A stretch of DNA of 64,000 nucleotides, from positions 1 through 64,000 of IMG/VR virus record IMGVR_UViG_3300035390_000014. The stretch is one strand, 5' to 3'. Positions 128 through 23,503 of this stretch are shown piece by piece; position 1 is the stretch's first letter; every line of letters begins with the position of its first letter. The stretch comes from a virus. The notes under the pieces were generated by a model. It saw only the letters and a list, made by a program, of their open reading frames with translations, did not search any database and was not told where the DNA came from. A program made the translations under genes and the position numbers.

Positions 128-3100
128 TTATCTTTTCAAACCTAATGCTGTAAGGTTTGCATTTAATAATTTAACAGACTCAGGAACAATTGAATCGACA
201 TGATCATCTTCTTCAAGTCTTCCTAAATCTGATTCCAATTGTTCTCTAATAAACTTGTTCTTAAGATCAATACAATCAGATTTAGTTGTTAGAAATTCTC
301 TTAAATTAAATTTGGCATTATGTCCAATCAATGCTGCTGTTTCCATTTCCCCACATCTTTGACCACCTTTATTTTTACGACCAGCTAAAGGTTGCAAAGT
401 CTTTCTTGCATATGATCCAATACCTCTTGCCGCTAACCTTGTCTCAGATATATGAACCATTTTAAAGAAATATCCATATCCACATGTTACTGAATTAACT
501 GGATAACTATTTGACTGAGGATCAAACACATGGTATGTAAATTGTGTATTTGTATAAGCTAATGCTTGTTTGGTCTTTTCCATATTAACTGATTCAAATG
601 GAGGTTGAATTATTGACATATTGTCTATCCATTCATCATCAATAATCAAGGGCATTTGCTCTTCAAACTGCTGATGATACCACCCAATTTCAGTATTATC
701 AATTATTTTTATATAACCAAGAACATAATCTTTCACAAGTATCTGAATTTGATCTTGAGATAATTCATGATTTATTACTGATTGATCTTCACCATGAATT
801 ATATGTTTCATTTGCTTCTTCAAATCAAATAAAGACATACCCATATGATATTCAAACAACTGACCTACATTCATTCGACCAATGGTTCCCAAAGGATTGA
901 CAATAATATCAGCATGTCTCCCATCAGGTAACATTGGCATTTTTTCATGAGGAATAATAGTAGAGATTACACCTTTGTTACCATGTCTGTTCCCAACTTT
1001 ATCCCCAATCTGAATTGGTCTAAAGAATATACCAAACATTTCAACTCTAATTCCTAATACCTCTTCACCTTTCTTTTTAAATTTTCCTGTATTACTGAAT
1101 AGATCAAGATTATTTGCCTTGATAAAAGGTTTAACCTGATCCTTCTCCAGATTTTCTTCGATGATAACTTTAATTTTTAATTCTTCATCCTGCTGTGAGT
1201 TGATAACACTTTCAACCCAATCATTATACTGAGGTATATCCACACACCATTGATTAACATATAGATTAACTTCTGTTATAATAACATCCTGTTTTGATAG
1301 AAGTTTTCTTTCTTCTTTAAATATATCAAAGAAGTCCATTTGATTATTCGGAAATTCTTTTAAAATTGCGTATGGAGTACCTTTAGCAATTCTATCTCCG
1401 ATTTTTGGTAAAGGTTTATAATCAGCATTTTTATCCAAAGATAATAACACTTTATTCATAGGGATATCAAAAGACATATCCTCAAAATGAACTGATGTAA
1501 ACAATCCTTCCTTCTGGACGCGGTCTGAGATGATAATTCCATCCTCATAATTGTATCCATAATAAACCATTACACAAGTTAAAAGGTTTTTGCCAATGTT
1601 TATACTTCCATCTTTACAAAAATTACTTTCTGCTAAGATTTCACCAGCTTTAAATTTATCACCTTGCTTCACATATATATTAAATACATCAAGATTTGAT
1701 ATATAAATTTTTCTATATGTGATATTAAATATTTCAATTGTCTTATCATCATATAAAGCTATTATATAATTACTATCAAGATGTATAACCTTTCCTGATT
1801 TTTTAGCAATTTTTACAAACTGAGTATACTTTGTATATAAATTTTCACAACCTGATTTAATCATAGGTTTGTCAAAATTTTGTAACATAATTGCCTGTCT
1901 CATTTGAGACGACGCCATTTGCAACCTAGTCTGATCATCATGTTCAAGGAATGGAACCATAGATACAGGAATTGAAATTGGTTGCTTTTCAAGAAATTCA
2001 TCAGTAAATCTTAAATTTTCATCCAGTGGAACATTTGGAATAAGATTTTGAAGAACTCCGCAGTTATCTCTATCTGGTGTATCAACAGGACATATTCTAC
2101 CAAACATACTTGGCATAATATCTCTTAAATGCTCAGGAACATTCTGTCTATTAAACCCACCAGGTCCAACCAAGCTTGTTCTGCTTAACTTAGTTGCTTC
2201 ATCAATAGGATTAATAGCAAAATCAAACTGAACAATATCTGATACATTACATTCGGATAATATTTGAGTTGAATTAACATTGAATTTTGGTTGTCTTGCT
2301 GTTCTATTGGACATACACATATCAAATACTGCTTTAGATATCTTTGCTAATACTACATATTCAAGACATCTAATTCTTTTATTCTTCAGATCAGTATCAT
2401 CAAGATCACCACCATTCAATGTATAAACAATTTCATCAATAATATTATCGGTTTGAAAGAATATTGTTGAAATAGGATCAACTTTCAATATTAAGTCAAG
2501 GGAATATATAATATCTTCACCCTTAACTCTAGCATTAAATTTTGAATAATTTCTTCCTATTTCTTTTATAATATCATCTTGAGTTAACCCTCTTGATTCA
2601 TCATAAAAACATTTTAAATCATAAATCAACTTTTCATACAAAGTTGATTCCGGTGTCATAATTGGCGCATCTACCATATCAGATAAACCAAATTTTTCAT
2701 TCATAACCTCAATCCCATAATAACCAAACATAATTAGAAATAATGGAACTTTTCTTCCTAAGATGCTAATATAAACATAAGGAGATTCTTTCTGAGGAAA
2801 TATCATAAGAGTTGCAACATTAGTTCTAATCTTGATACTCTTTCCTCTTGTAACAACAGGGATATCAAACAACTGAAATAGAGGTATTTTCTTCCTTCCA
2901 TTTATAACTATGTAATTGTCATCTACTAATGCCGGAATTTGCATAGATAAATCTATCTTTGCAGTTCCTTTTTGAAACCTGATTATCAAATTCTTTTTTA
3001 AGGTTTTACTTATCTCTCCGTTAGAAAATCTGGGTTCTTTTAATCTAAATTCCATCAATTCAAACCCTAATTCTTCTGCTGGGATCAGTATCTTTCTTAC

Positions 3101-3190
3101 GTTCTCCAAAAGAGCTGCATACTCTTGCTGTCGAATATTAAAGATATGATTATTTCCGCCAACTTTATATATCGGATTTTCTATAGCCAA
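128..3190 (-). CDS. Multisubunit RNA polymerase beta subunit (first phage RNAP)
   Basis: Phage homologue of bacterial RpoB, 1020 aa against about 1340 in E. coli. Conserved blocks occur in the expected order: RICPVDTPDRDNCGVL (bacterial RICPIETPEGPNIG) near residue 365, GYNYEDGIIISDR near 550, GDKVGNRHGNKGVIS near 730, VNPLGTIGRMNVGQ near 770, and GRKNKGGQRCGEMET near 940. The lysines and histidine of the active-site block NRHGNKG are kept. The start is TTG, placed by an AAAGGAG site nine bases upstream. It follows the beta-prime gene by 15 bp, so both should be co-transcribed. A second beta homologue is at 36870-40961, so this phage encodes two polymerases. Its distance from structural genes suggests a non-virion, middle/late-transcribing enzyme like the phiKZ nvRNAP (inference). 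Confidence 0.95.
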   Translation of the reverse strand: MAIENPIYKVGGNNHIFNIRQQEYAALLENVRKILIPAEELGFELMEFRLKEPRFSNGEISKTLKKNLIIRFQKGTAKIDLSMQIPALVDDNYIVINGRKKIPLFQLFDIPVVTRGKSIKIRTNVATLMIFPQKESPYVYISILGRKVPLFLIMFGYYGIEVMNEKFGLSDMVDAPIMTPESTLYEKLIYDLKCFYDESRGLTQDDIIKEIGRNYSKFNARVKGEDIIYSLDLILKVDPISTIFFQTDNIIDEIVYTLNGGDLDDTDLKNKRIRCLEYVVLAKISKAVFDMCMSNRTARQPKFNVNSTQILSECNVSDIVQFDFAINPIDEATKLSRTSLVGPGGFNRQNVPEHLRDIMPSMFGRICPVDTPDRDNCGVLQNLIPNVPLDENLRFTDEFLEKQPISIPVSMVPFLEHDDQTRLQMASSQMRQAIMLQNFDKPMIKSGCENLYTKYTQFVKIAKKSGKVIHLDSNYIIALYDDKTIEIFNITYRKIYISNLDVFNIYVKQGDKFKAGEILAESNFCKDGSINIGKNLLTCVMVYYGYNYEDGIIISDRVQKEGLFTSVHFEDMSFDIPMNKVLLSLDKNADYKPLPKIGDRIAKGTPYAILKEFPNNQMDFFDIFKEERKLLSKQDVIITEVNLYVNQWCVDIPQYNDWVESVINSQQDEELKIKVIIEENLEKDQVKPFIKANNLDLFSNTGKFKKKGEEVLGIRVEMFGIFFRPIQIGDKVGNRHGNKGVISTIIPHEKMPMLPDGRHADIIVNPLGTIGRMNVGQLFEYHMGMSLFDLKKQMKHIIHGEDQSVINHELSQDQIQILVKDYVLGYIKIIDNTEIGWYHQQFEEQMPLIIDDEWIDNMSIIQPPFESVNMEKTKQALAYTNTQFTYHVFDPQSNSYPVNSVTCGYGYFFKMVHISETRLAARGIGSYARKTLQPLAGRKNKGGQRCGEMETAALIGHNAKFNLREFLTTKSDCIDLKNKFIREQLESDLGRLEEDDHVDSIVPESVKLLNANLTALGLKR

Positions 3191-3205
3191 AATGTTGTTC
3201 TCCTT

Positions 3206-5920
3206 TTAAATTTCTTCGCCGCATAAGATTTTATCCATAACTCCATGATATAAACCAGAATCAAGGACACCACGTATGATATGTTTCTTTGGATTTGAAA
3301 ATGCTAAACCCATCAACCAGCTTTCATTTGAGGGCACAGTTTGAACAGATAGGTATTTAGGAACTACATTTTCTCGACCCTCAACCAATCTCCATTTTTT
3401 ATTATTATACCACATCAATTGAGATACAACACATTCAAAATGTACATGATGAATTGTTCTACTAAGGTTATAACAAGTGTACAACTTGGCAACCAATTCT
3501 TCTGGTTTAGTTCCTTTAGGAAATTTATGCAAAAGTTTAGACACTGTTGATAAATCAGCAACAATATCATGCTGTTTCATATCCTCACCTTCACTTTCCT
3601 TATCCAAAACAGCAACACCAGATGTATGAAATGTACGTAAAACCAACTGAGTATTACATTCTCCAAGACTCTGAGCTGCAATAACTCCAACAAACTCAGA
3701 ATCCAACATCTCATACAATTCCCCATAACATTTGGTGCATATTTTAGGGTTCTTACAATATATTGGACTTCTAACTTCAACAATCTTTCCTACATAACCA
3801 AGATAGTTATACTCGGTCATTTTAATCAGAGTACCATCTTCTTTAAACCATTTTCCAATTAACATCTTTGCTTTCTTTTCATCATCAACAAATACAGAAA
3901 GTAAATCAGTTGTTCCACAATCCTCAGTGTCTTTATCAATTTGAAGATTAGCACAAGTGAATATTAATTTTCTTGAAAGGTATCCAGATGTTCCTGTGTT
4001 CAAAGCAACATCAAGTAACCCCTTTCTAGAACCATTGGTAGAATCAAAGAACTCTCTTGGTGTTAACCCATTGATAAAACTATGTTTAATGGGTCTTTCA
4101 ATAATCTCACCTCTAAAGTTTGAAATAAAACCTCTGGTTAAAACTATCTGTCTTACCTGATCCCAACTCCCTCTAGCACCAGATTCTATCATGTATGCGT
4201 ATTTAAAATGATCTCTAAGATACTGAGTTGTTTCTTCCTTAGATACCATATCAAGTTGTTCTCTAATATCATCGCCTTCATACAATGAATCTCTTTTCTC
4301 AAGTGACCCTTCAATGAAACAATCATCTAGTGCAAGAGTTGCCCCAAATAATGTTGAATATTTAAATCCAAGAAATTTAATTTTATCGAGAACAGCAGCA
4401 GTAATTTCATTTGAATATCTATTATTAACATCAGTTAAATAGTAATTAATTTCTTTACCACCAACTTCTTCATCAATTATATGATAGTCAGATGGAAAAC
4501 AATCATTCAATAACTTTCTATCAGCTTTAATTGTTGTCCCTTTATATTCAACATCATACTGTAGATCAGGAAATATTTTATGAGTAACAGCATAGATACC
4601 CAATATAACATCCTGACTTGGTGTAGTTGACAAACTTCCATTAGAAGGATTGGTAAGATTTCTTATAACCAACAATCTATCCAACACTTCTTGCTTTGCT
4701 TCTTCACTGATTGGAACATAAACAGCCATCTGATCCCCATCAAAATCTGCATTAAATGGAGGGCATGACAATGGATGTAGTTTAATAACTTTTTCTAAAG
4801 TAACTTTGGTTTTATATCCCAAAAGACTTAATCTATGTAATGAAGGCTGTCTGTTTAAAATACATACCTCATTTACAGCAATCTCTTCACATATATTAAA
4901 AAGAATTGGGTTGCCAACTTCAATACAATTATCAATAAAATCAATTGAATCATTAATTTTCTTAAATCTTCCAATCTCAATAATTTTCTTTGCGATTTTC
5001 AATTTAAATAATTCAAGAAACATCAAATAAGGTAATGCACAATATTCCATTTCTAATGTAGGATCAGGAACAATTACTGCTCTACCAGAAAAATCAATTC
5101 GTTTACCTAAAATATTACCACGAATCAATCCTTCTTTTTTAGACATTTTCTCAAGAATATAAGCATACAACTCTTGAATATCTTTTTGAAGCTGTCTGTA
5201 ATAATTGTAATATAAATTTCTATCAACTCTTATATCACATGGAGTTTCTCTCATTGCTTCTTTTTTAGTAAGTATTTGAGTATAGTATCTATTAATTTTA
5301 TCCGAAGATACTTGTCCTTTCTTACTAACTTTCTTTGATGCAGGCCTTAAATCAGGAGGTAATACAATAACCTGACCGATTATTAATTGATCTATATTTT
5401 CTTTAACAACTTCCCAAGAAGTATTTCCTATACCCAAACCATAATCAGCTAAATCTTCAATTAATATTTTAATTGCTTCAGTACCGACTAAAGCATTTCT
5501 ATCAATATTTTCAGGGTCTTGTTTTTCAACCCTCCATGATTCTTCTTCATCATCATATACTAAAATACTGTTTTCATCTTTCATCAATTGATCCAATGCA
5601 GTCTTTACTTGACGACCACCAAGATCAATTACAAGATCATAAAACAATGGGTTCACAACCGGGATTGGTAGAATAATTTTAGCAAATCTTTTTCTTCTCT
5701 CATTGCTATTAACAACATCAACTCCACAATCTGCACAGGTTCCACCAGAACCTGATATACCCCAATAGGTTCCACATTGACAAGTATAATTCTTTTCTGG
5801 ACCAAATATCTGCTCAGAAAATAATCCTGTCGCATGAGGCAACTTCTTGTCGTAGATCTTAGTTGTTGTGATTTCTTTTAAGTCTTCACAAAACTCGTCA
5901 AAATTTAATAATGTAGGCAT
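3206..5920 (-). CDS. Multisubunit RNA polymerase beta-prime subunit, single chain (first phage RNAP)
   Basis: RpoC homologue of 904 aa (E. coli about 1407). It keeps an N-terminal zinc ribbon (C47, C49, C62, C65 in CQCGTYWGISGSGGTCADCG), GKRIDFSGRAVIVPDP, the switch region RQPSLHRLSLLGY, and the Mg-binding loop FNADFDGDQMAVY near residue 392 with all three aspartates. It also has GARGSWDQVRQ and the trigger-loop/bridge-helix block LGECNTQLVLRTFHTSG near 763. After the trigger loop a shortened C-terminus still resembles the beta-prime C-terminal segment, so the chain is unsplit. That differs from the second polymerase and from phiKZ. The long bacterial insertion between trigger loop and C-terminus is missing. 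Its ATG has an AAAGGAT site. Confidence 0.95.
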   Translation of the reverse strand: MPTLLNFDEFCEDLKEITTTKIYDKKLPHATGLFSEQIFGPEKNYTCQCGTYWGISGSGGTCADCGVDVVNSNERRKRFAKIILPIPVVNPLFYDLVIDLGGRQVKTALDQLMKDENSILVYDDEEESWRVEKQDPENIDRNALVGTEAIKILIEDLADYGLGIGNTSWEVVKENIDQLIIGQVIVLPPDLRPASKKVSKKGQVSSDKINRYYTQILTKKEAMRETPCDIRVDRNLYYNYYRQLQKDIQELYAYILEKMSKKEGLIRGNILGKRIDFSGRAVIVPDPTLEMEYCALPYLMFLELFKLKIAKKIIEIGRFKKINDSIDFIDNCIEVGNPILFNICEEIAVNEVCILNRQPSLHRLSLLGYKTKVTLEKVIKLHPLSCPPFNADFDGDQMAVYVPISEEAKQEVLDRLLVIRNLTNPSNGSLSTTPSQDVILGIYAVTHKIFPDLQYDVEYKGTTIKADRKLLNDCFPSDYHIIDEEVGGKEINYYLTDVNNRYSNEITAAVLDKIKFLGFKYSTLFGATLALDDCFIEGSLEKRDSLYEGDDIREQLDMVSKEETTQYLRDHFKYAYMIESGARGSWDQVRQIVLTRGFISNFRGEIIERPIKHSFINGLTPREFFDSTNGSRKGLLDVALNTGTSGYLSRKLIFTCANLQIDKDTEDCGTTDLLSVFVDDEKKAKMLIGKWFKEDGTLIKMTEYNYLGYVGKIVEVRSPIYCKNPKICTKCYGELYEMLDSEFVGVIAAQSLGECNTQLVLRTFHTSGVAVLDKESEGEDMKQHDIVADLSTVSKLLHKFPKGTKPEELVAKLYTCYNLSRTIHHVHFECVVSQLMWYNNKKWRLVEGRENVVPKYLSVQTVPSNESWLMGLAFSNPKKHIIRGVLDSGLYHGVMDKILCGEEI

Positions 5921-5931
5921 TATTAATCCTT

Positions 5932-6291
5932 TTATTTAAAGGTTTTAATTACATACTCAGATATTGCAACTAAATGTGTCTTGATCTCCTTTGAAATTGA
6001 TAGTTTGAAATTAGGCATTAGCGCCAACATTGTTTGCCCAACTAGGTCTTTAAGGTCTTCTCCTTTAATAGATTCTTTAACTTCTTGGTTAAGTTCATGT
6101 ATATCATTTTCAAAAGTTTCTGTATTATCTTCAACATTAACTAGTCTATCATTTATGTCTTTAACATTTTTTTCTGTTTTAAGACACATATTTTTATAAG
6201 ATTCTATAGTTGGAAGAATTCTCATAATCTCCAATCTCTTATCAATCAATCCAATAAGTTCAATCTCCATCTCTTTACTAAATATAGCCAT
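5932..6291 (-). CDS. Coiled-coil hypothetical protein
   Basis: 119 aa, not recognised. The middle (residues about 30-85) is rich in E/K/N/D with heptad-like leucine, isoleucine and valine spacing, suggesting a coiled coil; the ends look helical. The start codon overlaps the stop of the E2-like gene upstream (TAATG) and the gene ends 11 bp before the polymerase beta-prime start, so it may be translated with either. It could be an accessory subunit of the polymerase or of the Ubl cassette; nothing in the sequence decides. Confidence 0.7.
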   Translation of the reverse strand: MAIFSKEMEIELIGLIDKRLEIMRILPTIESYKNMCLKTEKNVKDINDRLVNVEDNTETFENDIHELNQEVKESIKGEDLKDLVGQTMLALMPNFKLSISKEIKTHLVAISEYVIKTFK

Positions 6292-6761
6292 TATATAATC
6301 TCCCTTGGTAATGGTGGCGATGTTTTTAAATGTTCACGTAATGGATAATGATGTGGATCATCCAATCCCCATTGAGATATCATATATTTTATATACTTAT
6401 TTGAATAAAATTTATAATTTGGCACACTGGAAGGATCATTCTGGTATTTTTCCATTAACTTATTGCTTATCAATTTTGTTCCTATAATACTATTTCCAGT
6501 ACAAAACCTAGAAAATTTAGGTGGGTTATTTATATCTATATTTTTTTCTCCTTCCCACCCCCAAGCATTTGGATGAAAACTATCTGCAATTATTATATCT
6601 TCTATAATATTATCCAATAAATTATTTACTATAACATAATACCTTTTTACATTATAGCTTGGATGATAATAAGTTATATCATAAGAGGTATGTTTAAATA
6701 TAATATTTTTTGGTATCACACCACCTTTTGATACATAATATTTTTTACCTTCTATCATCAC
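6291..6761 (-). CDS. E2-like (UBC-fold) candidate protein
   Basis: 156 aa. A beta-rich first half (YYVSKGG, ITYYHPSYNVKRYYVIVNN) leads into H63-P64-N65 and then C87 in RFCTGN. An HPN followed by a 'C-x-G' cysteine is the arrangement of UBC-fold E2 enzymes (HPN ... active-site Cys), and FCTGN resembles the CLGS/CLGN motif of bacterial E2-like proteins. The spacing between HPN and Cys is longer than in eukaryotic E2s. The gene lies 8 bp downstream of an E1-like gene inside a cassette with Ubl and JAB genes, which is the main support. Function is inferred from motif and context only; H63 and C87 would be the key residues. Confidence 0.5.
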   Translation of the reverse strand: MMIEGKKYYVSKGGVIPKNIIFKHTSYDITYYHPSYNVKRYYVIVNNLLDNIIEDIIIADSFHPNAWGWEGEKNIDINNPPKFSRFCTGNSIIGTKLISNKLMEKYQNDPSSVPNYKFYSNKYIKYMISQWGLDDPHHYPLREHLKTSPPLPREII

Positions 6762-6769
6762 CCACTCCT

Positions 6770-7657
6770 TTATGCTGCTCCAGTATCAGGCAGTAATTCT
6801 AAATAAACTTGACTTGGATTTTCATCATTAACTTTAATTGTATAATATTCATTTAAAGGAACAATAGTACATACAATTTCAGATAATATTTTTACAGCAT
6901 TATTATAATGATCAATTTCATTTTTCTTTATGCATTGAATATTTCCTCCTACACATCCTTCTTGTCCAACAATAACTATCAAATCCTTAGTTTTATTAAG
7001 TTTAGTAATTTGAGGCAATGTTTCATGAAGATTTCTAATCTTATTATCACCTTTACAATATTCAAGAACCATATCAGGTTTATTATCAAATAATTCAATA
7101 GCTTTATTGGCTTGTTTCTTAACCAAATCAATTTCAGCTTGAAAAACTAATTGTCTTTCCATAAAATCAGTTAATATTTTTTTATCAATATATTGAGAAG
7201 CAATTGAAGATGCTATGGTTAATTCTGATAATGATAAATTATGTGAATATCTACCTGTTTGTTTAAATACAACTTTATGATATTTTTCACAGTCAATGAC
7301 TAATGTTTTATATGAAATATAAAATCTAACATCAATTTCACCACCACGACTGCAAATTTCATCTCTACAATCAACAATCAATTCACTTTCAGGAAGCCAA
7401 ATCTTTCCTTCTATATATTCAATAGGAAAGATTTTAGTTTTAATTAATGAGTTATTGTTATATATAATACGACTCATTGCCTCAACTTTAAACTTACCGA
7501 TATCATCTCTCTTATAAATAGAATTGCCAATATTTTTTGTTTCTATTATATCAGGGTCAATTAATATTAAATTTTCAATTCCTTTCATTTTAGAAATGTT
7601 ATCAGCAAAGAATCCTCCGAGTGATCCCAAACCAATTATTACGATGCTTTTATACAT
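6770..7657 (-). CDS. ThiF/E1-like adenylating enzyme (second E1-like protein)
   Basis: 295 aa. It begins with a Rossmann ATP-binding loop IIGLGSLGG (residues 8-15), followed by IDPDIIETKNIGNSIY (D34, D36, N42, N45) and K55 in GKFKVEA, the usual ThiF/MoeB/E1 adenylation arrangement. DCRDE at 96-100 matches the strand after which E1s place 'D.D' contacts. No clear CxxC zinc pairs and no obvious catalytic-Cys loop like the one in the other E1-like protein; cysteines are at 97, 102 and 123, with more in the C-terminal third. It sits between the E2-like gene and a helical protein. It may activate a Ubl C-terminus by adenylation without an E1 thioester (inference). The C-terminus ends LLPDTGAA. Confidence 0.8.
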   Translation of the reverse strand: MYKSIVIIGLGSLGGFFADNISKMKGIENLILIDPDIIETKNIGNSIYKRDDIGKFKVEAMSRIIYNNNSLIKTKIFPIEYIEGKIWLPESELIVDCRDEICSRGGEIDVRFYISYKTLVIDCEKYHKVVFKQTGRYSHNLSLSELTIASSIASQYIDKKILTDFMERQLVFQAEIDLVKKQANKAIELFDNKPDMVLEYCKGDNKIRNLHETLPQITKLNKTKDLIVIVGQEGCVGGNIQCIKKNEIDHYNNAVKILSEIVCTIVPLNEYYTIKVNDENPSQVYLELLPDTGAA

Positions 7658-7711: not shown

Positions 7712-8131
7712 TTATTCATTTATATATTCATTTATTTTTTGTAATGTATAATGCAACGAATGAATCTGTTTCATTATAGTTTGAGCTTTACCATAAATAG
7801 TTGGATCAGTTTCTTTGATAAGATTATGCATCAAATGAGAAAGTTTATGAGGTTTTAATTTATTATAAAGTTTATTCATCCCTGCAGTTAATTCACATGC
7901 AACAGTCTCATATTCAATAACATTTGGCGTATTTTGAATAAGTCTATGTGTCAAGAATAATAAATCATTAATATTATCCTCTTCCAAATGTGTAGAAGCT
8001 AAATATAAATCATTTTCATGTTTGTCTTGTAATTCTTTCAAATCAATTTTTATTAATTTAACTGGATTGCCCTCAATTTCAGCGATATAATAATCTTTTT
8101 CATCTTTTAATATTTTAATTTTCTGTTCCAT
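7712..8131 (-). CDS. Helical hypothetical protein in the Ubl cassette
   Basis: 139 aa, not recognised. A short beta-like N-terminus (KILKDEKDYYIAEIEGNPVKLIKI) is followed by a predicted all-helical body with one cysteine (YETVACELTAG). It has an AAAAGGAG site and follows the Ubl gene across a hairpin. Its place between the Ubl and the second E1/E2 pair suggests a part in the cassette, but no motif supports a function. Confidence 0.7.
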   Translation of the reverse strand: MEQKIKILKDEKDYYIAEIEGNPVKLIKIDLKELQDKHENDLYLASTHLEEDNINDLLFLTHRLIQNTPNVIEYETVACELTAGMNKLYNKLKPHKLSHLMHNLIKETDPTIYGKAQTIMKQIHSLHYTLQKINEYINE

Positions 8132-8196: not shown

Positions 8197-8748
8197 CTAT
8201 CCTTTGGAACCAGCAGGTTTGATGAACTCAAGAACATCGCCTTCTTTAAGAACATAAGAAGAATCGATCTTGTTTCCAGAAACCTGACCCTCAGCAAGTC
8301 TATCAATATTCAGAACTTCCTTGAGGAATTCCTGAACTGCTCCAACTGTTTTACCCTGAACAGGAAAGTCAGCAGAGTTGGCACCACAAGAAACCTGAAT
8401 GGTTGTTGTGGTTTTGTCGCCTTTCTTTGCAGAAGGTTTAGTTAGAACACTTGACATTTTAAACTGAGCTGCAGTTACAGGTGCAGGAGGTTTAGAAGCC
8501 ACAGTTTGAGCAAGTTTCTGAGTATGGCTCATCCCAGGTTTAGTTGCAACAGGTTTAGTTGCAACAGGTTTAGACACAGATGCAGGACCATCAGCAGTAG
8601 CGGCAGAAGCAGCAAGAATTGCTTTAATTGTAATGTCTTTGGTCTTTTTGGAAAAACCAACAATTTTACGTGCTCTAACGATAGTTCTCAGTTCAGCAAC
8701 GGTCATGTCATTCAGAGTGTCATAAGTTTCGATTGTAGAATTAGTCAT
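8197..8748 (-). CDS. Ubiquitin-like protein with N-terminal SAP-like domain
   Basis: 183 aa in three parts. Residues about 13-48 (MTVAELRTIVRARKIVGFSK...) look like a SAP/LEM-type helix-extended-helix that often binds nucleic acid. Residues about 49-112 are a low-complexity A/K/P/T linker with a repeated VATKP. Residues about 113-183 form a small beta-grasp-like domain (TTTTIQVSCGANSADFPVQG, then a helix AVQEFLKEVL, then YVLKEGDVLEFIKP) ending in G-S-K-G. The fold pattern and C-terminal glycine match ubiquitin-like/ThiS/MoaD proteins, and the ending resembles PRTRC-type Ubl 'protein C' (from memory, not searched). It sits directly downstream of an E1 and a JAB gene. The last glycine could be used directly, or a terminal residue could be trimmed by the JAB peptidase. 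Confidence 0.75.
   Translation of the reverse strand: MTNSTIETYDTLNDMTVAELRTIVRARKIVGFSKKTKDITIKAILAASAATADGPASVSKPVATKPVATKPGMSHTQKLAQTVASKPPAPVTAAQFKMSSVLTKPSAKKGDKTTTTIQVSCGANSADFPVQGKTVGAVQEFLKEVLNIDRLAEGQVSGNKIDSSYVLKEGDVLEFIKPAGSKG
8536..8565. repeat. Two tandem 15-bp units in the Ubl linker
   Basis: AGGTTTAGTTGCAAC occurs twice back to back (8536-8550 and 8551-8565). It encodes the repeated VATKP of the linker between the SAP-like and Ubl domains. Such a repeat can expand or contract and change linker length without affecting the frame. Confidence 0.85.
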
Positions 8749-8780: not shown

Positions 8781-9458
8781 TTAGTTTTTAGAATTTCTTG
8801 TTTTCGCTAATGTAGCCATTGAAGTGATATCGAAATATACTTCGCCAAACCTTGTCACATCTTTTCCTTGATGAATTGCATAGAACATCCAACACATTAT
8901 TGTTGCAACAGTTAAATTTGTGAACAATAGCTGTGGCGCTGATTCAGATAGTTCTTCGCAACTCATATCTTCCGGAGATCGATCTTCTGGATATTCAATC
9001 TCTGGATGATATTCATCTAATGACGCTGTTACATTCTTCCCACCCTCCCTTTTATAAATCTGAGCGTTACCATCAGTGTATTCATTACCACCACTGATAA
9101 CAGTTATATCATTAAGTGTTGAACAATAATCAGAAATAACTTTTCTGGAAACATGATTGTCAACACATATAAAAACGATGGAATTTTCTGATATTAATGA
9201 TTTTATATTATCTTCATTAACAAATTCATTATAATCTTTAAAACCAACCTTTGAAAATTTGTGTTTAAGTTCTGTGCATTTAACAGTAGCCTTATCACCT
9301 AATCTTGCAAAAGTTTGTCTTTCACTATTTCGTGCTTCATAAAAATCTCCATCAACCAAACTAACAGATGCATTAATGTCTGAGTAGTTTAAATATCTGG
9401 ACAAATTATCACACAAAATAGATCCAACTCCACCTAACCCAATAATAACAATATTCAC
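8781..9458 (-). CDS. ThiF/E1-like Ubl-activating enzyme (PRTRC ThiF type)
   Basis: 225 aa. Nucleotide-binding loop IIGLGGVGS (residues 5-13), then VDGDFYEARNSERQTF (35-50) containing the acidic, Asn and Arg residues typical of E1/ThiF adenylation sites, and FICVDNHVSR near 97-105. Near the C-terminus MSCEELSESAPQLLFTN (C167) matches the position of the conserved 'SC..' loop of PRTRC-type ThiF proteins, making C167 a candidate E1 thioester cysteine. The start is GTG with a TAGGAG site. The gene lies between the JAB and Ubl genes, 12 bp and 32 bp away, the usual order for an E1 acting on the adjacent Ubl. Confidence 0.85.
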   Translation of the reverse strand: MNIVIIGLGGVGSILCDNLSRYLNYSDINASVSLVDGDFYEARNSERQTFARLGDKATVKCTELKHKFSKVGFKDYNEFVNEDNIKSLISENSIVFICVDNHVSRKVISDYCSTLNDITVISGGNEYTDGNAQIYKREGGKNVTASLDEYHPEIEYPEDRSPEDMSCEELSESAPQLLFTNLTVATIMCWMFYAIHQGKDVTRFGEVYFDITSMATLAKTRNSKN

Positions 9459-9470
9459 AATAACAATCTC

Positions 9471-10520
9471 CTATTTCTTTGTTAGGTCGTCTTGATCCGG
9501 ATTTTCATCAACATGAAATGGATCACTTTCAGTTACTTCAAAACCCATCAGCTTTGCACTTTCATCATCCAATCCATCAATCAAATCTTTCATCATCAAA
9601 TCTGATTTATGATGTCTATATGGACATTGTGAACATGGATTCCATTCATCATCACTAACTTCATAAGAATCAAATAAACTTCTTTGTTGAGGAGTGCCAG
9701 GCATGAATGATGAATTTCTTTTATAAAATTCACTAATTGACCCACCAAATCCATATGATCCATGATTATATGTTGGTGTTGTATAAATAGGTCTATCAAT
9801 CTGTTTCATCCATTTCTTTGGAAACTCAAAATCCTTTTCAGGAGCAGTACAATCATAACCAAGTTTCTTCTCAGCTGGTACAGGTGTTTTTACACCTTTC
9901 AACCAGGTATATCTCTGGTATTGTTGAGTAACTTCATATTCAACTAATTGAACACCATCAATATAGTCCTCTGGGTTTACCATAAATCTTTCACCACCTG
10001 ACATAATAGAACAAGATATATCAAAATATTCATCAGCCATTTTACCAAGAGTGATATGCAATCCATCCCAATTTTCTTCGTCAGCATGATCTGTACCAGA
10101 ATGAAATGCTGACATATTAGCATGACTATGAATGGTTCCAATTCTTATATAATCCTTATAAGTATCTTCTCCATTGATATAATTAACACTTGCTCCAGTT
10201 ACACCTTGTTTTGGCACATCAATTCTATATCTTTTCCTTTTCTTATTATAATGCAGAATTACATTCGCTTCTGCCTTATACACTTTATATACTTCTCTAA
10301 ACAAAGAAAGTATTTGAGCAAATTGTCTTATTGAAATTTTAGCTATGTTCAAAGTTGCATATGTAGAACATTCACCTAAAATAGAAATTGAATCCACCTT
10401 GTTGAGTGTATTAAAATCACCCATGGTCTTTTTCAGATATATTCCATCTTTTGCTACTACATAGAATATAGGTTCGTCTGGCATTTCAGTTTTTCCATCA
10501 TTCACCCATACTGGAAACAT
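9471..10520 (-). CDS. JAMM/JAB-family metallopeptidase (deubiquitinase-like)
   Basis: 349 aa. The complete JAMM zinc signature is present: H131-x-H133-x7-S141-x2-D144 in HSHANMSAFHSGTD, with an upstream glutamate candidate (E84 in YKAEANVIL). The N-terminal region (PIFYVVAKDGIYLKK) precedes the catalytic domain, as in the PRTRC JAB protein. The C-terminal third has a CSQCPYRHHKSDL element that may bind another metal. Expected role: hydrolysis of the isopeptide or peptide bond after a Ubl C-terminus, to mature the Ubl or to remove it from targets. It abuts the E2-like gene (no gap) and is followed by E1 and Ubl genes. Confidence 0.88.
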   Translation of the reverse strand: MFPVWVNDGKTEMPDEPIFYVVAKDGIYLKKTMGDFNTLNKVDSISILGECSTYATLNIAKISIRQFAQILSLFREVYKVYKAEANVILHYNKKRKRYRIDVPKQGVTGASVNYINGEDTYKDYIRIGTIHSHANMSAFHSGTDHADEENWDGLHITLGKMADEYFDISCSIMSGGERFMVNPEDYIDGVQLVEYEVTQQYQRYTWLKGVKTPVPAEKKLGYDCTAPEKDFEFPKKWMKQIDRPIYTTPTYNHGSYGFGGSISEFYKRNSSFMPGTPQQRSLFDSYEVSDDEWNPCSQCPYRHHKSDLMMKDLIDGLDDESAKLMGFEVTESDPFHVDENPDQDDLTKK

Positions 10521-13088
10521 TTAAAAATCCTCCTTAAATTGTTCACTTCTAAGAGATACTTTTGCATTAGTATTTAATATATAACCGCCTAACATATTCG
10601 GAAATCCTGTTTTGTTTTCTGCCATTCTAGGATTAGCAACAGAAATCCTTGGCATTGTAATACCATGTCTTACTACATATTTCAAATCATTTTTTGTAAT
10701 ACTAGTCCCCCATTCTAAATTTGCCCAGCTTGTGACGTAATGATATTCAAATGAATATCTAGTTCCATTTTTTCTTGCTAGAAATTTAATAGAATTTGAT
10801 CTACCATCTGTAAAATGATCACCATGTTGCCATTTAATTTTTTCTAAATCAAATTCTACTATTTCAGATTTCTTCCAGTCATCTGATTTAAATGGTATTC
10901 TTTTAAATTTAGATATAGTATCTTGATTCATCCACAATGTGCATAAATTAGAACATATTGCCAATGGATATTTAGTTGAACCATCATTAATAAAAGCTAT
11001 AATGGAATTAGTATCCTTCTTGGGAAAATTAATAATACCAGTAGTTGTTGCTTTGATTTTATCCCCAGACTTCCAATCACCACACTGTGATTCAACTTTT
11101 CTAACACACCCAATATTAACATTATCATTACCAAAATTAATATATGGAATTCTAAATTGAACTTTTTTATTTAATGAGGTACTGTTAATATACAATTTAT
11201 TATCTTTTTCATCATACTCAAAACTATCAATAGATGATACAAGTAACATATCCTCTGGGTTACTCCAATTGGCATACACTATTGGATCGCCAACTTTAAA
11301 ATCAATATCGCATTGAATACGAGGTATATATAGCCTTGTTCTATTTGCTAATAAAATTTTCTTTAAATACTCTTTTATATCATCAATACCACAATAATAT
11401 CTAACAGCTTGATTACTATCTATAAGAATTCCTTTGTTTCTCATAATATGAAATTTAGGTTTACTCTCTGATCCATTGCTATTGACTAATAGTTTATCAA
11501 AATGACATATAGTATCAGGTTCTATTAAATTATTTGTATCTATAAAATCATAATCATTATGACCATTTTCATAATCACTATGATTTAAATTTATACTATT
11601 TCCATTTTTTCCAACAGGAGGTAAAAACTTTATAATAATATGTCCAGATCCTGATATTGAAATATTTTTATATTTCATTTTTCTAATTTTATAACAATTA
11701 TTATATCCTTCATTGGAAGTAATGATATAATAATCTTTTTCTTTATCAAGAGATTCACCATTGATTTTAATATTACTAAAATTCATTATAGAAAAATCAA
11801 TATTTTCAATAAGATAATGATCATTTCCAATTAATGCCTCAATTTTTCCATCCTGTGCTACTCTAATTGATTTAATCCTTTTATTGACTATACATCCCCC
11901 AGATTTAAAAGTTATAATATCATCAGGTTTAATAACTTTACCATTAACTTCAACTTCCTCCAATTCAGTCTTAGTATATAAATCCCCAAGACCTTTTTCA
12001 AAATCTTGATATGGTACTGAAATTAATTCTCCTTTACTATTTTCTAACTCAACTTCTAAATATGATTCTTCATGATCATCAGTTGTGATAGAATATAAAT
12101 ATAAAATCTCATTGTTAAAAGAAATTTCATCACCAACCTGAATTGTCATTCCTTTTATTGCTAATGAATATGAGGTATTTCTAACATTTGATTTTTTAGT
12201 TACAGTTGACGAAGTTGTACCTCTAACAATATTTTGAAGTAATTCATATGATGAACCAGAATTTTTTGAATCATTTGAATATTCTCTCACAGAACTGATT
12301 ACTCTACCAATGTTTCTATGGAATTTTAACCAACTTACATTATAAATAAACATTGGATCAAGTTTACTAAAATACATCCATGAGAGATAATCTTGAACTT
12401 CATAAGCATTAGAGTTTTCATATGCTTTAATATTATCAGTATAATCTTTATTATAACGATTCAACCAAAATGTTTCAATAATATTTTCAGTAGTTTCTAA
12501 TACAGTTGAATAATTTATAATACTCCCAAGACATATTGTTTGACTATCTGGAATATTATAAAGAGGTGCCTTAAAAAGATAATCTGACAAACTTGTAATT
12601 GGATGCAATCTGAAAAATGGTTGCATTTGAAGCATTTGATTTTGTTTATTTAACACTATTATAAAAACAACATATGGAAAAGATAACTGAAATGAATATG
12701 GGCGACCTGAATTTTCATCCAAATAATTTTCATACCCATACTCTTTTAATTTTCCAGTTATTCTCAATTTTTCTATTGTTGCTTCCATCCCAATATCAGC
12801 TTTAATAGTTCTAATTCTCGGAGGTTCTTCAATAACTATAATTTTTCTACCATTCCCAAAAGTTTCAAAATACTTACAACCTACAGGTAAAATTTCATTG
12901 TTATTATTAAAATTTGTTTTCAAACCATTATAGAAATCTTTTGTTCTTATAGTTCTATTTCTACATATTGGTTTAAAAGGAACCTCTTTTGTTTCGCCGT
13001 GCACATAATTTTTGTCTAATTGGTAAATATCATCTTTAGTTCCAATTATACTAGTATATTGATTACCTATAACAATTTCTCTATTCAC
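10521..13088 (-). CDS. Large protein with N-terminal E2-like (PRTRC protein B-type) domain
   Basis: 855 aa. Residues about 80-200 carry the pattern of the bacterial E2-like PRTRC protein B: IVIEEPPRIRTI near 85-95, a hydrophobic strand FPYVVFIIVL at 137-146, H162-P163, then LFKAPLYNIPDSQTICLGS (171-189) with a candidate active-site C186. The remaining 600 or so residues are beta-rich with several GD-containing short segments (VGDEISFNN, PDDIITFKSGG, KVGDPIVYAN, SGDKIKATT) that look like repeated small barrels. No known domain was recognised there. The start is GTG after AAAAGGAG. It is the first long gene of the cassette and abuts the JAB gene. PRTRC protein B is normally much shorter, so the long extension is unusual. 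Confidence 0.65.
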   Translation of the reverse strand: MNREIVIGNQYTSIIGTKDDIYQLDKNYVHGETKEVPFKPICRNRTIRTKDFYNGLKTNFNNNNEILPVGCKYFETFGNGRKIIVIEEPPRIRTIKADIGMEATIEKLRITGKLKEYGYENYLDENSGRPYSFQLSFPYVVFIIVLNKQNQMLQMQPFFRLHPITSLSDYLFKAPLYNIPDSQTICLGSIINYSTVLETTENIIETFWLNRYNKDYTDNIKAYENSNAYEVQDYLSWMYFSKLDPMFIYNVSWLKFHRNIGRVISSVREYSNDSKNSGSSYELLQNIVRGTTSSTVTKKSNVRNTSYSLAIKGMTIQVGDEISFNNEILYLYSITTDDHEESYLEVELENSKGELISVPYQDFEKGLGDLYTKTELEEVEVNGKVIKPDDIITFKSGGCIVNKRIKSIRVAQDGKIEALIGNDHYLIENIDFSIMNFSNIKINGESLDKEKDYYIITSNEGYNNCYKIRKMKYKNISISGSGHIIIKFLPPVGKNGNSINLNHSDYENGHNDYDFIDTNNLIEPDTICHFDKLLVNSNGSESKPKFHIMRNKGILIDSNQAVRYYCGIDDIKEYLKKILLANRTRLYIPRIQCDIDFKVGDPIVYANWSNPEDMLLVSSIDSFEYDEKDNKLYINSTSLNKKVQFRIPYINFGNDNVNIGCVRKVESQCGDWKSGDKIKATTTGIINFPKKDTNSIIAFINDGSTKYPLAICSNLCTLWMNQDTISKFKRIPFKSDDWKKSEIVEFDLEKIKWQHGDHFTDGRSNSIKFLARKNGTRYSFEYHYVTSWANLEWGTSITKNDLKYVVRHGITMPRISVANPRMAENKTGFPNMLGGYILNTNAKVSLRSEQFKEDF

Positions 13089-13461: not shown

Positions 13462-13773
13462 TTATTTTTTAATTCTAAATCTTACTCGATTAGGAGTTTC
13501 AACCCATTCACTTCTTTGAAATGGTACAGTTCTCCAATCTTTTTTATCCAAATCAAAAACATGAACCATACCCTGTTTCTGCACCAAAGAAAAGATTTTA
13601 CCCATATTTACATCTTTTGGTCTTTTTCCCTCAGGTATTTTTGAAAAATCCAGAGTGCATCTCATTGTTCTTTCAGTTCCATCAAGTTTTCTAAACCTAA
13701 TAGTAACTTCTTCCTCTGCTTTTATCTTTTGATAAAACTCTATTGCGTTTTGTAATACATTGTCATCAGCCAT
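13462..13773 (-). CDS. Small phage SH3/Sm-like protein (DUF2693/WYL_2-like)
   Basis: 103 aa. After an N-terminal helix it shows VTIRFRKLDGTERTMRCTLD, then HVFDLDKKDWRTVPFQR and a terminal strand. This 'F.K.DGt.R.mrCTl ... v.D.d...WR.f' pattern is the one seen in short DUF2693 (WYL_2, Sm-like SH3 beta-barrel) phage proteins. The role is unknown. It precedes the Ubl cassette in the same direction with an AAGGAG site. Confidence 0.7.
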   Translation of the reverse strand: MADDNVLQNAIEFYQKIKAEEEVTIRFRKLDGTERTMRCTLDFSKIPEGKRPKDVNMGKIFSLVQKQGMVHVFDLDKKDWRTVPFQRSEWVETPNRVRFRIKK

Positions 13774-13979: not shown

Positions 13980-14561
13980 TTATCCCCAACATGTAATGCC
14001 AAACATTCTTCTATTTCTTTCTTTTATATTAGAAATAAATACATCTTTGTCTTTATCATGAAATGTATGTTTGTGCAGATACGTATGCTCAGTTGATAAC
14101 ATTAATCCTAAATTTTCTTTTCGATCATCCATATCATTCATATTAATGTGATGAACACACCATATTAAATTCCGCAACTTTGTAATATTGTATAGAAATT
14201 CTTGTTCCTCTTTAAATAAGATTGGATTTTGATTCTTATCAATTGTGCCTAAAATATCTATAAAAGGTGTTAATGGAAATTTAAAATCAAATTGTGAATA
14301 ATAAGAAAAGAAAAATGCATGATGTTTACCAATATTGCAAGACTTTTCTATATTAAATAATTTTTCAATTGTTGAAGTTATTCCTGTTCTTGATTTACGA
14401 CCTTTTGTTACAGCACTATTATAAATTATTGGACATTTATCACATTGTCCACCACTCTCACGAACATTTCTATAATCGCACATCATACAACCACCATCTT
14501 TTATAGAATCATGTTCTGTTAATAATTTCCATAATCCAGGAAAATCAATACTATTTGTCAT
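13980..14561 (-). CDS. HNH-type endonuclease-like protein
   Basis: 193 aa. Two CxxC pairs occur near the N-terminus (CMMC at residues 25-28 and CDKC) and the C-terminal third has WCVHHINMNDMDDRKENLGL followed by TEHTYLHKH. The 'HH-x3-N..D..eNL....eH..lH' spacing is that of HNH nucleases such as those freestanding in phages. The gene follows the radical SAM gene with an 11-bp overlap, so they are translated together. It may be a homing nuclease or a host-DNA nuclease. Confidence 0.7.
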   Translation of the reverse strand: MTNSIDFPGLWKLLTEHDSIKDGGCMMCDYRNVRESGGQCDKCPIIYNSAVTKGRKSRTGITSTIEKLFNIEKSCNIGKHHAFFFSYYSQFDFKFPLTPFIDILGTIDKNQNPILFKEEQEFLYNITKLRNLIWCVHHINMNDMDDRKENLGLMLSTEHTYLHKHTFHDKDKDVFISNIKERNRRMFGITCWG

Positions 14562-15594
14562 TATCTCGTCTCTCCTTATGAATTAAATTATCAACAACAT
14601 CTCCATCTTCTGATATCATTCGACTCATAAGCATACAGGTCCAACAACATCCTTTGCAATAATTCTTTTTATCAATTCTAATCATTTCTTTATATGTAGG
14701 ATGTAATCCTTCACCAAGAAAACAATCATATGCCTTCATAACTGGAGTCATAATTCCACGAATACGAAGGCAAAGTCTTACACTACCATCAGCATCAATT
14801 GTCATATTATGAACATTATCTTCTAACCCACAATCAAGATTTGCTGGTAATATATCCCAAATTTTCATCAACAATGTATCAGACATATGAACATCAAGCT
14901 TATCATCAATAATCTTTTGAAATATATCTTTAACTGTCTTATTCTTTTTAACTAAAAGATTCTCATCCTCAACATTTGAAAAGTCATAATAATTATTTTT
15001 TTTAATATCAACTGTTGTGATATCACTGTTTATACCCATGTCTGTTAACATTTTAACGAGGTTATACAAATGATATATATTGGTATTATCAACTGTGATT
15101 TCCGCTACTAAATCATTGATTTTACCCTTATACTTTTGCAACCTTTCAATACCAGCTACACATTTTTTATATCTGTCATCATCAGTTAATGATTTATCAT
15201 CCAATATCAATGGATCAACTGATGATGTTAGACCTTGAATATACTCAGTATCTTCCATCAACTTATCAATCATTGGTTGAACTGCATCTGAATTATTTGT
15301 AATAATTGTATAATGAATATCTTCTTTATTACAATAATTTATAATATCAGCAAGATCCTTTCTAAGCATTGGCTCGCCTCCATAAAAAAGCATAAAAGCA
15401 TCTGGATTATGTTTTTTAATTCTACCCAATGTTGCAATAACATATTCGGTTGACATTTCTTGTTTATGATAATGACTCATATTAGGATAACTTGATGGTT
15501 TCCCTTCATAGTCTTTCACAATAGCACAATAGGAACATTTCAAATTACACTGCCTTGTCAGTAACCATGAAATTATTTGTATCTTATTTTTCAT
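14551..15594 (-). CDS. Radical SAM enzyme with SPASM-like C-terminus
   Basis: 347 aa. The 4Fe-4S motif C16-x3-C20-x2-C23 lies in TRQCNLKCSYC, followed by FYGGEPMLRKD (the SAM-binding GGE). C-terminal cysteines in LDCGLEDN, VRLCLRIRG and YCKGCCWTCML resemble the auxiliary-cluster SPASM/twitch region used by peptide-modifying radical SAM enzymes. It is not QueE-like in length or C-terminus. The substrate is unknown. Genes on both sides are small zinc-ribbon and HNH proteins, and the Ubl cassette is about 1.5 kb downstream. Confidence 0.85.
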   Translation of the reverse strand: MKNKIQIISWLLTRQCNLKCSYCAIVKDYEGKPSSYPNMSHYHKQEMSTEYVIATLGRIKKHNPDAFMLFYGGEPMLRKDLADIINYCNKEDIHYTIITNNSDAVQPMIDKLMEDTEYIQGLTSSVDPLILDDKSLTDDDRYKKCVAGIERLQKYKGKINDLVAEITVDNTNIYHLYNLVKMLTDMGINSDITTVDIKKNNYYDFSNVEDENLLVKKNKTVKDIFQKIIDDKLDVHMSDTLLMKIWDILPANLDCGLEDNVHNMTIDADGSVRLCLRIRGIMTPVMKAYDCFLGEGLHPTYKEMIRIDKKNYCKGCCWTCMLMSRMISEDGDVVDNLIHKERRDNDK

Positions 15595-22477: not shown

Positions 22478-23503
22478 TTACTCCGAATCAAGTTTAATTC
22501 TAAATACAGATAACATATCTTCTTTAGTTAATATTGCAGCACTATCACGACTTTCCCAAATAGTAATCTGTTCTATACCTTTAAGATGACCAACAAACAT
22601 TAACTGTTCCCAACACCAAACTAAAATATTTTCTGCAGTTGGAATTTCAATTAAGTCATTTAAAGAACTATGATCTAAAACATCTATAATACAGGTATTC
22701 ATTATTTCTTTTAACTCTTTATAATCCATTACCATCATAGTAGCAGGATCTATTCTTCTTCTAATTCTAACTTCAATATCCCATTCATGTCCATGCCAGT
22801 TTTCACATTTTCCTAAATGATGTGGAAGTTTATGAGCTGCAGCAAAACTTAATTTTTTACCAATGGTTACAAATGGCATAATCCTATTTGAAAGATGAAA
22901 TTCACTATGACATGGAACACATTCAGCTTCTAAATTTGAGATAAGAATATTTGAATGATCTTCATCTATATGATGAATATTAATATTTTCATCTGAATTA
23001 CATCTTTTACAATGAGAAATATCTTCGAAACTAGAAAGAAAATCTCTATAAAACTTTTCAGCTTCAACAGATTTAGTATGAATTTCAGGTTTGTAATTAT
23101 GGTGTTTATTTCCATATTTACCTAACATTCCATTTATTCTATCTTTATAAGTTCCTTTCAACCATTTATCAGTAACTGTTTTTGATATTTTATCTACAAC
23201 CCCTGAGTTATGAACAGGATTATTATATCCCATTCTTCTAGTTGACATGATTCTATTTTTTCTCAATGGCTCAATTTTTTTGATTCTTGTGCTAATATAA
23301 TATTTATTAATATATAAATCTTGTTTCTCAATTTCCTCAATAATTTCTTGAGTATATAAATCTGTTTTAATTATTAAATCATCTAAAACTTTATTTATTT
23401 TATTAAGATAATTTTTATGATCTTCATCATCCATTCTAACTAGATGTATCATCATATTACTGTATGTAAATTTACATACTGGACATATTCCTTTATTTGG
23501 CAT
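22478..23503 (-). CDS. HNH endonuclease fused to QueD/6-pyruvoyl-tetrahydropterin synthase
   Basis: 341 aa with two parts. Residues 1-205: a CPVC knuckle, a basic NUMOD3-like stretch (MGYNNPVHNSGVVDKIS) and an HNH nuclease motif (CKRC 165-168, IHHIDEDHSN 176-185, CVPCHSEFHL 195-204). Residues about 212-341: QueD fold with H224 (AAAH), C233 and the HGHEW zinc histidines H237/H239, MDYKELK, LDHSSLND (277-284), PTAENI and WES (315-318). QueD makes 6-carboxytetrahydropterin for 7-deazaguanine synthesis. No QueC, QueE or FolE is recognised in this window. It may be a homing-type nuclease joined to, or inserted before, an active queD. Confidence 0.85.
   Translation of the reverse strand: MPNKGICPVCKFTYSNMMIHLVRMDDEDHKNYLNKINKVLDDLIIKTDLYTQEIIEEIEKQDLYINKYYISTRIKKIEPLRKNRIMSTRRMGYNNPVHNSGVVDKISKTVTDKWLKGTYKDRINGMLGKYGNKHHNYKPEIHTKSVEAEKFYRDFLSSFEDISHCKRCNSDENINIHHIDEDHSNILISNLEAECVPCHSEFHLSNRIMPFVTIGKKLSFAAAHKLPHHLGKCENWHGHEWDIEVRIRRRIDPATMMVMDYKELKEIMNTCIIDVLDHSSLNDLIEIPTAENILVWCWEQLMFVGHLKGIEQITIWESRDSAAILTKEDMLSVFRIKLDSE

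Follow-up and report, generated by a model that had tools for sequence, protein, structure and literature searches.

Why would a bacterial virus keep two E1-like and two E2-like proteins next to each other when a single ubiquitin-like protein (Ubl) is easily recognized beside them? Ubiquitin-like conjugation was once thought typical of eukaryotes, and its prokaryotic examples come mostly from operons of bacteria, several with antiviral roles. The window we analyzed, the first 64 kb of the 202,719-base virus record IMGVR_UViG_3300035390_000014, raises the question with a minus-strand cassette that reads, in order of transcription, E2D, JAB, E1a, Ubl1, gene 7712, E1b, E2b, gene 5932, RNAP beta', and RNAP beta (Table 1). 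An initial annotation of the letters had counted two proteins of each kind and had singled out E1b and E2b as a second pair; the count holds, and we recovered both reading frames on the minus strand with the motifs and residues named for them. The viruses concerned, a family of giant phages, carry two neighboring gene sets for ubiquitin-like protein tagging: module 1 (E2D, JAB, E1a, and Ubl1) and module 2 (E1b and E2b). Sequence comparison and predicted structure suggest that module 2 is probably a second conjugation branch with its modifier fused to the E1.

Table 1. Positions of the cassette genes, of sites within E1b and E2b, and of other genes in the 64-kb window
Feature	Position	Strand	Remarks
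E2D	10521..13088	-	Large protein with Prok-E2_D-like domain
JAB/JAMM peptidase	9471..10520	-	HSHANMSAFHSGTD; Pfam Prok-JAB, 0.0018
E1a	8781..9458	-	Canonical E1-like protein; Pfam ThiF, 6.8e-19
Ubl1	8197..8748	-	SAP-like N terminus and Ubl domain; tail AGSKG
Gene 7712	7712..8131	-	Between Ubl1 and E1b
E1b	6770..7657	-	ThiF/E1-like, 295 aa; Pfam ThiF; C-terminal beta-grasp-like domain (predicted)
Ubl2	6773..7012	-	Predicted second modifier, E1b residues 216-295; AlphaFold2 model; standalone gene in sister clade
TGAA tail of E1b/Ubl2	6773..6784	-	Conserved C-terminal end
E2b	6291..6761	-	E2-like ORF; 156 aa from GTG, 155 aa from ATG at 6758
E2b H63 codon	6573..6575	-	His of HPN (GTG numbering); invariant column
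E2b C87 codon	6501..6503	-	Predicted catalytic Cys (GTG numbering); invariant column
Gene 5932	5932..6291	-	Small protein, helical; flanked by E2b and RNAP beta'
RNAP beta'-like gene	3206..5920	-	tblastn to phage beta' proteins; directly downstream of gene 5932
RNAP beta gene	128-3190	-	Last in cassette order
Rpb2-like protein (second RNAP set)	36870-40961	-	1363 aa; PF00562, 3.3e-50
Rpb1-like protein (second RNAP set)	43423-45765	-	780 aa; PF00623, 4.8e-26
WYL_2-domain protein	13462-13773		4e-10
Radical SAM protein	14551-15594		4.7e-13
Ribonucleotide reductase large chain	58836-60563		1e-99
Protein with C-terminal 6-pyruvoyl tetrahydropterin synthase (QueD-like) domain	22478-23503		1.6e-27

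Distribution of the cassette and separability of its modules

Neither named phages nor viral contigs yielded a close relative when searched directly with the E1b and E2b of the window, and the conserved stretches of E1b had no relative in GTDB genomes (one genome per species). The RNAP beta' gene was used as the comparative anchor, and the family was reached through it as 80-81 related loci, some of which are copies or overlapping contigs, so that counts of distinct sequences are given where relevant. A further scan with the beta' alignment reached a sister clade with a split form of the cassette (the split clade). E1b is present in 72/81 of the beta'-relative loci (blastp) and E2b in 71/81 (profile search), the two adjoining in nearly all, while Ubl1 occurs in 68 loci, gene 5932 in 57, and gene 7712 in 14. 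ORF comparison gives a common order in most loci, E2D-JAB-E1a-Ubl1-(variable gene)-E1b-E2b-(small helical genes)-beta'-beta. E1b-E2b is a conserved pair just upstream of RNAP beta' in dozens of uncultured phage contigs, its pairing exceeds chance, and, as far as the collections searched show, the family is viral. Cassette neighbors are also conserved (the WYL_2 protein in 58 loci and the radical SAM protein in 54).

Two fragmentary records bear on whether the modules belong together. L052 (91.9 kb) has E1b, its one ThiF, together with E2b, and no detectable E2D, Ubl1, or second ThiF; L063 (61.8 kb) has E2D, E1a, and Ubl1, with no E2b and no second ThiF. Although both records are partial, the local absence is clear because the genes flanking the cassette are in place, and these contents speak for two modules able to exist apart.

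Module 1 resembles the PRTRC gene set, itself similar to operon type 6d (PMC1779556), at scores below the curated NCBIfam cut-offs: E1a matches PRTRC_ThiF at 6.5e-9 (35.5 vs 144.75 bits) and JAB matches PRTRC_A at 3.9e-6 (26.6 vs 101.8 bits). It differs from that set in that these phages carry the E1b-E2b module in addition. E2D matches Prok-E2_D, likewise below the cut-off, at 0.0015, and at 1.6e-5 in the genome search; it keeps a Cys in ..TICLGS without the His of HPN. The large E2s of the split clade have HPN..C, and in the window clade the canonical-looking active site sits on E2b. In L044, two tandem E2D-like genes (878-3235 and 3235-5679) lie on one phage contig. Ubl1 gives weak TGS/ThiS matches, and its family tail, ..AG(K/R/S)KG or ..G[KR]KG, carries variable extensions, which suggest a precursor trimmed by a peptidase, presumably JAB; in a homologue from L034 (7143-7772) up to about 50 residues follow ..GRKG. 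Genes resembling the SAP-like N terminus of Ubl1 stand just upstream of E2D in L008 (3052-3489), L010 (3161-3523), L013 (3792-4118), and L039 (3047-3487); considered as a second Ubl, they proved to hold SAP-like N termini only, with no Ubl domain.

Homology of E1b and E2b to known enzymes

By its sequence, E1b can be assigned to the ThiF-fold E1 homologues: it matches Pfam ThiF (PF00899) with E=3.7e-13 (49.6 bits vs a cut-off of 28.1), has the motifs IIGLGSLGG and DCRDE, and is matched in its adenylation domain by the PADLOC CBASS E1-E2 models (4.7e-15). Its N-terminal ~120 residues align in profile comparison with MoeB, MccB, ThiF, Cap2, and eukaryotic E1s, the best full-profile PDB matches being MoeB (4.3e-14), MccB, and ThiF. 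Apart from one truncated row of the alignment, every fused E1b has G9/G11/G14, D34, K57, and D96. Active-site residues of MoeB that have been named together are Gly41, Arg73, Lys86, and Asp130 (PMC12355090). The MoeB-type adenylation site is incomplete in E1b, which has no conserved equivalent of Arg73. E1a has NxxRQ, including the Arg73 equivalent, in 65/65 sequences and C167 likewise in 65/65; the E1b alignment holds C97 (of DCRD) in 67/69 and C123 in 55/69, with no invariant Cys besides C97 and none comparable to C167 of E1a. In the sister clade NLxR is kept in the first E1 and lost in the second. The divergence of the two E1s, expected from the initial annotation, is borne out by phylogeny, in which the E1a sequences group as a single clade (100/99) distinct from E1b, while E1b monophyly and the finer E1 relations are left without resolution by the tree. 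An alignment of the entire E1s was so divergent that it could not serve as a search query.

The E2b of the window has HPN at residues 63-65 and C87 within FCTGN (GTG numbering). Conservation of these residues in homologues had been set beforehand as a check on the pair, and both the His and the Cys are invariant in 72/72 E2b-type ORFs; the Asn of HPN is mostly kept, with His instead in five. The usual form is HPNxDPxTGxFCLP, an HPN-x8-C spacing close to the HPN-x7-C of eukaryotic E2s, and in the window sequence, as in a few of its close relatives, extra residues are inserted between HPN and Cys. No Pfam, PHROGs, NCBIfam, or PADLOC model matches E2b. A 58-member profile searched against 177,635 PDB sequences returned three at E<=10, all of them E2 enzymes (best 0.11) that align on HPN..C. 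When built without the distant loci, the profile recovers the E2b of L076 (3.5e-10) and L080 (2.4e-7); behind these come the large E2s of L076, L079, and L080 (0.001-0.002) and nothing else until a match at 0.4; the large E2 of L076 itself matches Pfam UQ_con (2.2e-4) over the residues that the E2b profile aligns to. In hhalign comparisons E2b gives P=2.2e-7 over 83 columns with the large E2s of the split clade and P=2.9e-4 with five human E2s (approximate sequences), vs controls of 0.036-0.73; its direct comparison with window-clade E2D is weak (P=0.053).

The AlphaFold2 model of E2b is confident (pLDDT 92.4, pTM 0.85) and has the order strand meander, HPN, Cys, helix. Foldseek found no significant match for it, UBC or other, in PDB or BFVD, and the TSG101 UEV domain appears only at rank 41, which is not meaningful. 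The E2 identity of E2b thus rests on sequence, a UBC fold being putative, and the comparisons indirectly, partly via the split-clade E2s, point to a relative of E2 enzymes.

The C-terminal domain of E1b

The initial annotation had also supposed an unrecognized second modifier, perhaps gene 5932 or gene 7712. Such a modifier is likely, but its likely place is neither of the two. Both small genes are rejected on grounds of occurrence, helical nature, and inconstant ends: homologues of gene 7712 are confined to 14 loci and vary at the C terminus, and gene 5932 encodes a helical protein with weak coiled-coil Pfam matches and a variable end. Sequence conservation and structure prediction probably make the C-terminal domain of E1b, here called Ubl2, the best candidate.

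The E1b of the window ends in ..ELIPETGAA, and the family end (V/I)EL(I/L)PETG(A/G/S)A is placed at the exact C terminus. Entropy is 2.5 bits per column over the last ~80 residues vs 1.0 bit in the final eight columns. [AGS]A ends 62/65 distinct fused E1b sequences and Ala ends 63/65, against a background in which 4.8% of 1756 ORFs end in [AGST]A. GAA is the commonest noted end (39/65), others being GGA, GSA, NSA, ISA, and similar. Constraint is greatest on Gly at -3 and on the terminal Ala, rather than on an LAA end. All four Ala codons and all three stop codons are used in the tail region, and ATGA overlaps occur in 5/65; together with the entropy drop, this indicates that the tail is selected as protein. 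The same rarity of ATGA and the use of four Ala codons also rule out that the tail arises from overlap with the start codon of E2b.

The AlphaFold2 model of Ubl2 (pLDDT 87.2) consists of a helix followed by beta-beta-alpha-beta-beta and a free tail. Its top Foldseek matches, protein G, doublecortin, PI3K (presumably the Ras-binding domain), and UFM1, are beta-grasp-type folds, none of them significant (best E=0.15), and the domain has no match to any Pfam Ubl family. The last ~80 residues of E1b would form a separate, predicted beta-grasp domain with an invariantly placed small-small-Ala tail. Ubl1 differs in its tail, an extended ..KG vs the fixed small-small-Ala end of Ubl2, and the idea that Ubl2 is a diverged copy of Ubl1 finds no support (hhalign P=0.22).

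Comparison of the clades at the sequence level identifies the Ubl2-type domain as fused to E1b in one and encoded by a separate gene in its sister. The sister-clade E1b is short (175-200 aa) and without the C-terminal domain, and in 7/7 loci examined an independent ORF of 84-116 aa separates it from E2b. These standalone ORFs end in LEVTVNPLTGTA, VNLTILPVTDAA, VTINIRPIPSSA, and IKMEIHPVTGAA (L126, L128, L129, and L139, in order) and in LNIYFLPIVESA, VTIYLMPIVNSA, and ININFINLPNTA (L178, L188, and L192). Their tails resemble the fused one (e.g., ..HPVTGAA and ..NPLTGTA), and 7/7 end in [AST]A. An end-to-end hhalign comparison of all seven with the C-terminal domain of E1b gives P=0.0013, a modest link, vs 0.12-0.72 for five unrelated neighbor families; with two standalone ORFs alone the comparison was negative.

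Candidate mechanism, rival readings, and known systems

We lean toward the reading that the cassette is made up of two ubiquitin-like conjugation modules, the second being E1b-E2b with the modifier Ubl2 fused to E1b. Adenylation of the free C-terminal Ala of Ubl2 would fall to E1b or to a pair of E1a and E1b; the pair is proposed because E1b is without the usual arginine, and it would fail to explain L052, in which E1b is the one E1. Activated Ubl2 would next be transferred to E2b, onto Cys87 in an active site that includes His63, and finally be joined to a target amine, from which JAB may remove it. In the window clade the conjugated species would be either intact E1b or Ubl2 released from it beforehand. 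The terminal Ala should be no obstacle, because in CBASS the cGAS protein is proven to be conjugated through a Gly or Ala at its C terminus, the penultimate residues being variable (PMC10097602). Speculatively, the target may be the transcription machinery of phage or host, given the fixed position beside RNAP beta'. We think it rather unlikely that the two pathways are independent and that E1b itself is the tag, attached via its C-terminal alanine and perhaps to RNA polymerase.

Ubl1 might instead be the only modifier, loaded by both E1a and E1b, with the C-terminal domain of E1b recruiting E2b much as the UFD of eukaryotic E1s recruits E2. The place of that domain at an E1 C terminus beside an E2 gene, its beta-grasp-like predicted fold, the wide occurrence of Ubl1 (68 loci), and the single JAB per cassette are all consistent with this. 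A recruiter, however, needs no fixed free end, yet small-small-Ala is found in 62/65 fused and 7/7 standalone sequences, and L052 has E1b-E2b without detectable Ubl1 or E2D; we regard a single modifier as unlikely. Another reading is a heterodimeric E1, as used in SUMO and NEDD8 activation, with E1a as the active half and E1b as a pseudo-adenylation scaffold, whatever its C-terminal domain does. The cassette shares with UBA2-SAE1 and UBA3-NAE1 a pair of E1 homologues of which one is complete and the other is without an adenylation residue; the predicted beta-grasp domain at the C terminus of E1b recalls the UFD of those E1s. E1a keeps NxxRQ and C167, E1b and its split-clade counterpart have lost the Arg, and the E1a and E1b genes usually occur together. 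Against this, the glycine motif, D34, K57, and D96 are kept in E1b almost without exception, and the sole ThiF is E1b in L052 and E1a in L063 (both partial records), making such a heterodimer quite unlikely. The UFD of heterodimeric eukaryotic E1s lies on the active subunit, and to our knowledge it has no conserved free C-terminal tail.

The best PDB matches of E1b (MoeB, MccB, and ThiF), its MoaD-like tail (E. coli MoaD ends in ..EVAFFPPVTGG), and a radical SAM gene near the cassette would also suit a MoaD/ThiS-like carrier for sulfur chemistry, with the tail adenylated, thiocarboxylated, or otherwise modified and E2b no conjugating enzyme. That reading is improbable, since E2b has an invariant HPN..C and a profile that matches E2 enzymes only, and neither a rhodanese nor a sulfur-transfer gene was found in the cassette. 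Least probable, and very much so, is an ssrA-like degron in which a C-terminal AA shortens the life of E1b without relation to conjugation: the GAA ends would fit, but the other ends share Gly at -3 and Ala rather than LAA, and the tail is retained where the domain is a separate gene.

Returning to the fused-modifier reading, we compared module 2 with known systems. CBASS Cap2/Cap3 with a cGAS-like CD-NTase, like the cassette, sets E1-like and E2-like activities beside a JAB peptidase, and its conjugated protein ends in Gly or Ala, as the Ubl2 tail ends in Ala (PMC10097602). Cap2, however, is a single E2-E1 fusion, whereas E1b and E2b are separate genes with the terminus on E1b, and the cassette lies in a phage, not in a defense island; we found no CD-NTase among the cassette proteins scanned and no single-chain E1-E2, the criterion for CBASS type II. 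MoeB-MoaD and ThiF-ThiS share with E1b-Ubl2 a ThiF adenylation domain, a small partner of beta-grasp fold (predicted for Ubl2), and a ..PPVTGG-like tail; they differ in that Ubl2 is fused to the E1b C terminus and ends in Ala, and in that E1b is without Arg73 and has an E2-like gene next to it. The Ubl-ThiF fusion of Campylobacter jejuni also joins a Ubl-like and a ThiF domain in one chain, with the Ubl at the amino terminus (PMC1779556); that of E1b is carboxyl-terminal, with a free tail and an attached E2 gene.

None of the open-licence papers searched describes a ThiF protein that has a C-terminal Ubl with a free conserved tail and is encoded beside an E2, and a jumbo-phage survey and a review do not mention a phage-encoded conjugation system. 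If true, an activating enzyme that keeps its modifier fused to its C terminus would be a new arrangement, and the alanine of that modifier would extend the CBASS rule of Gly or Ala as the conjugated residue. With the fused form in one clade and the split form in its sister, a tail-bearing Ubl at the C terminus of an E1 would also offer a natural way to test the assembly of modifiers, E1s, and E2s. That uncultured phages carry two conserved syntenic modules beside their own RNA polymerase leads to the question of what these viruses tag, and whether phages use the chemistry that hosts turn against them. Besides the polymerase pair at 128-5920, the minus strand of the window encodes a second multisubunit RNA polymerase set (Table 1).
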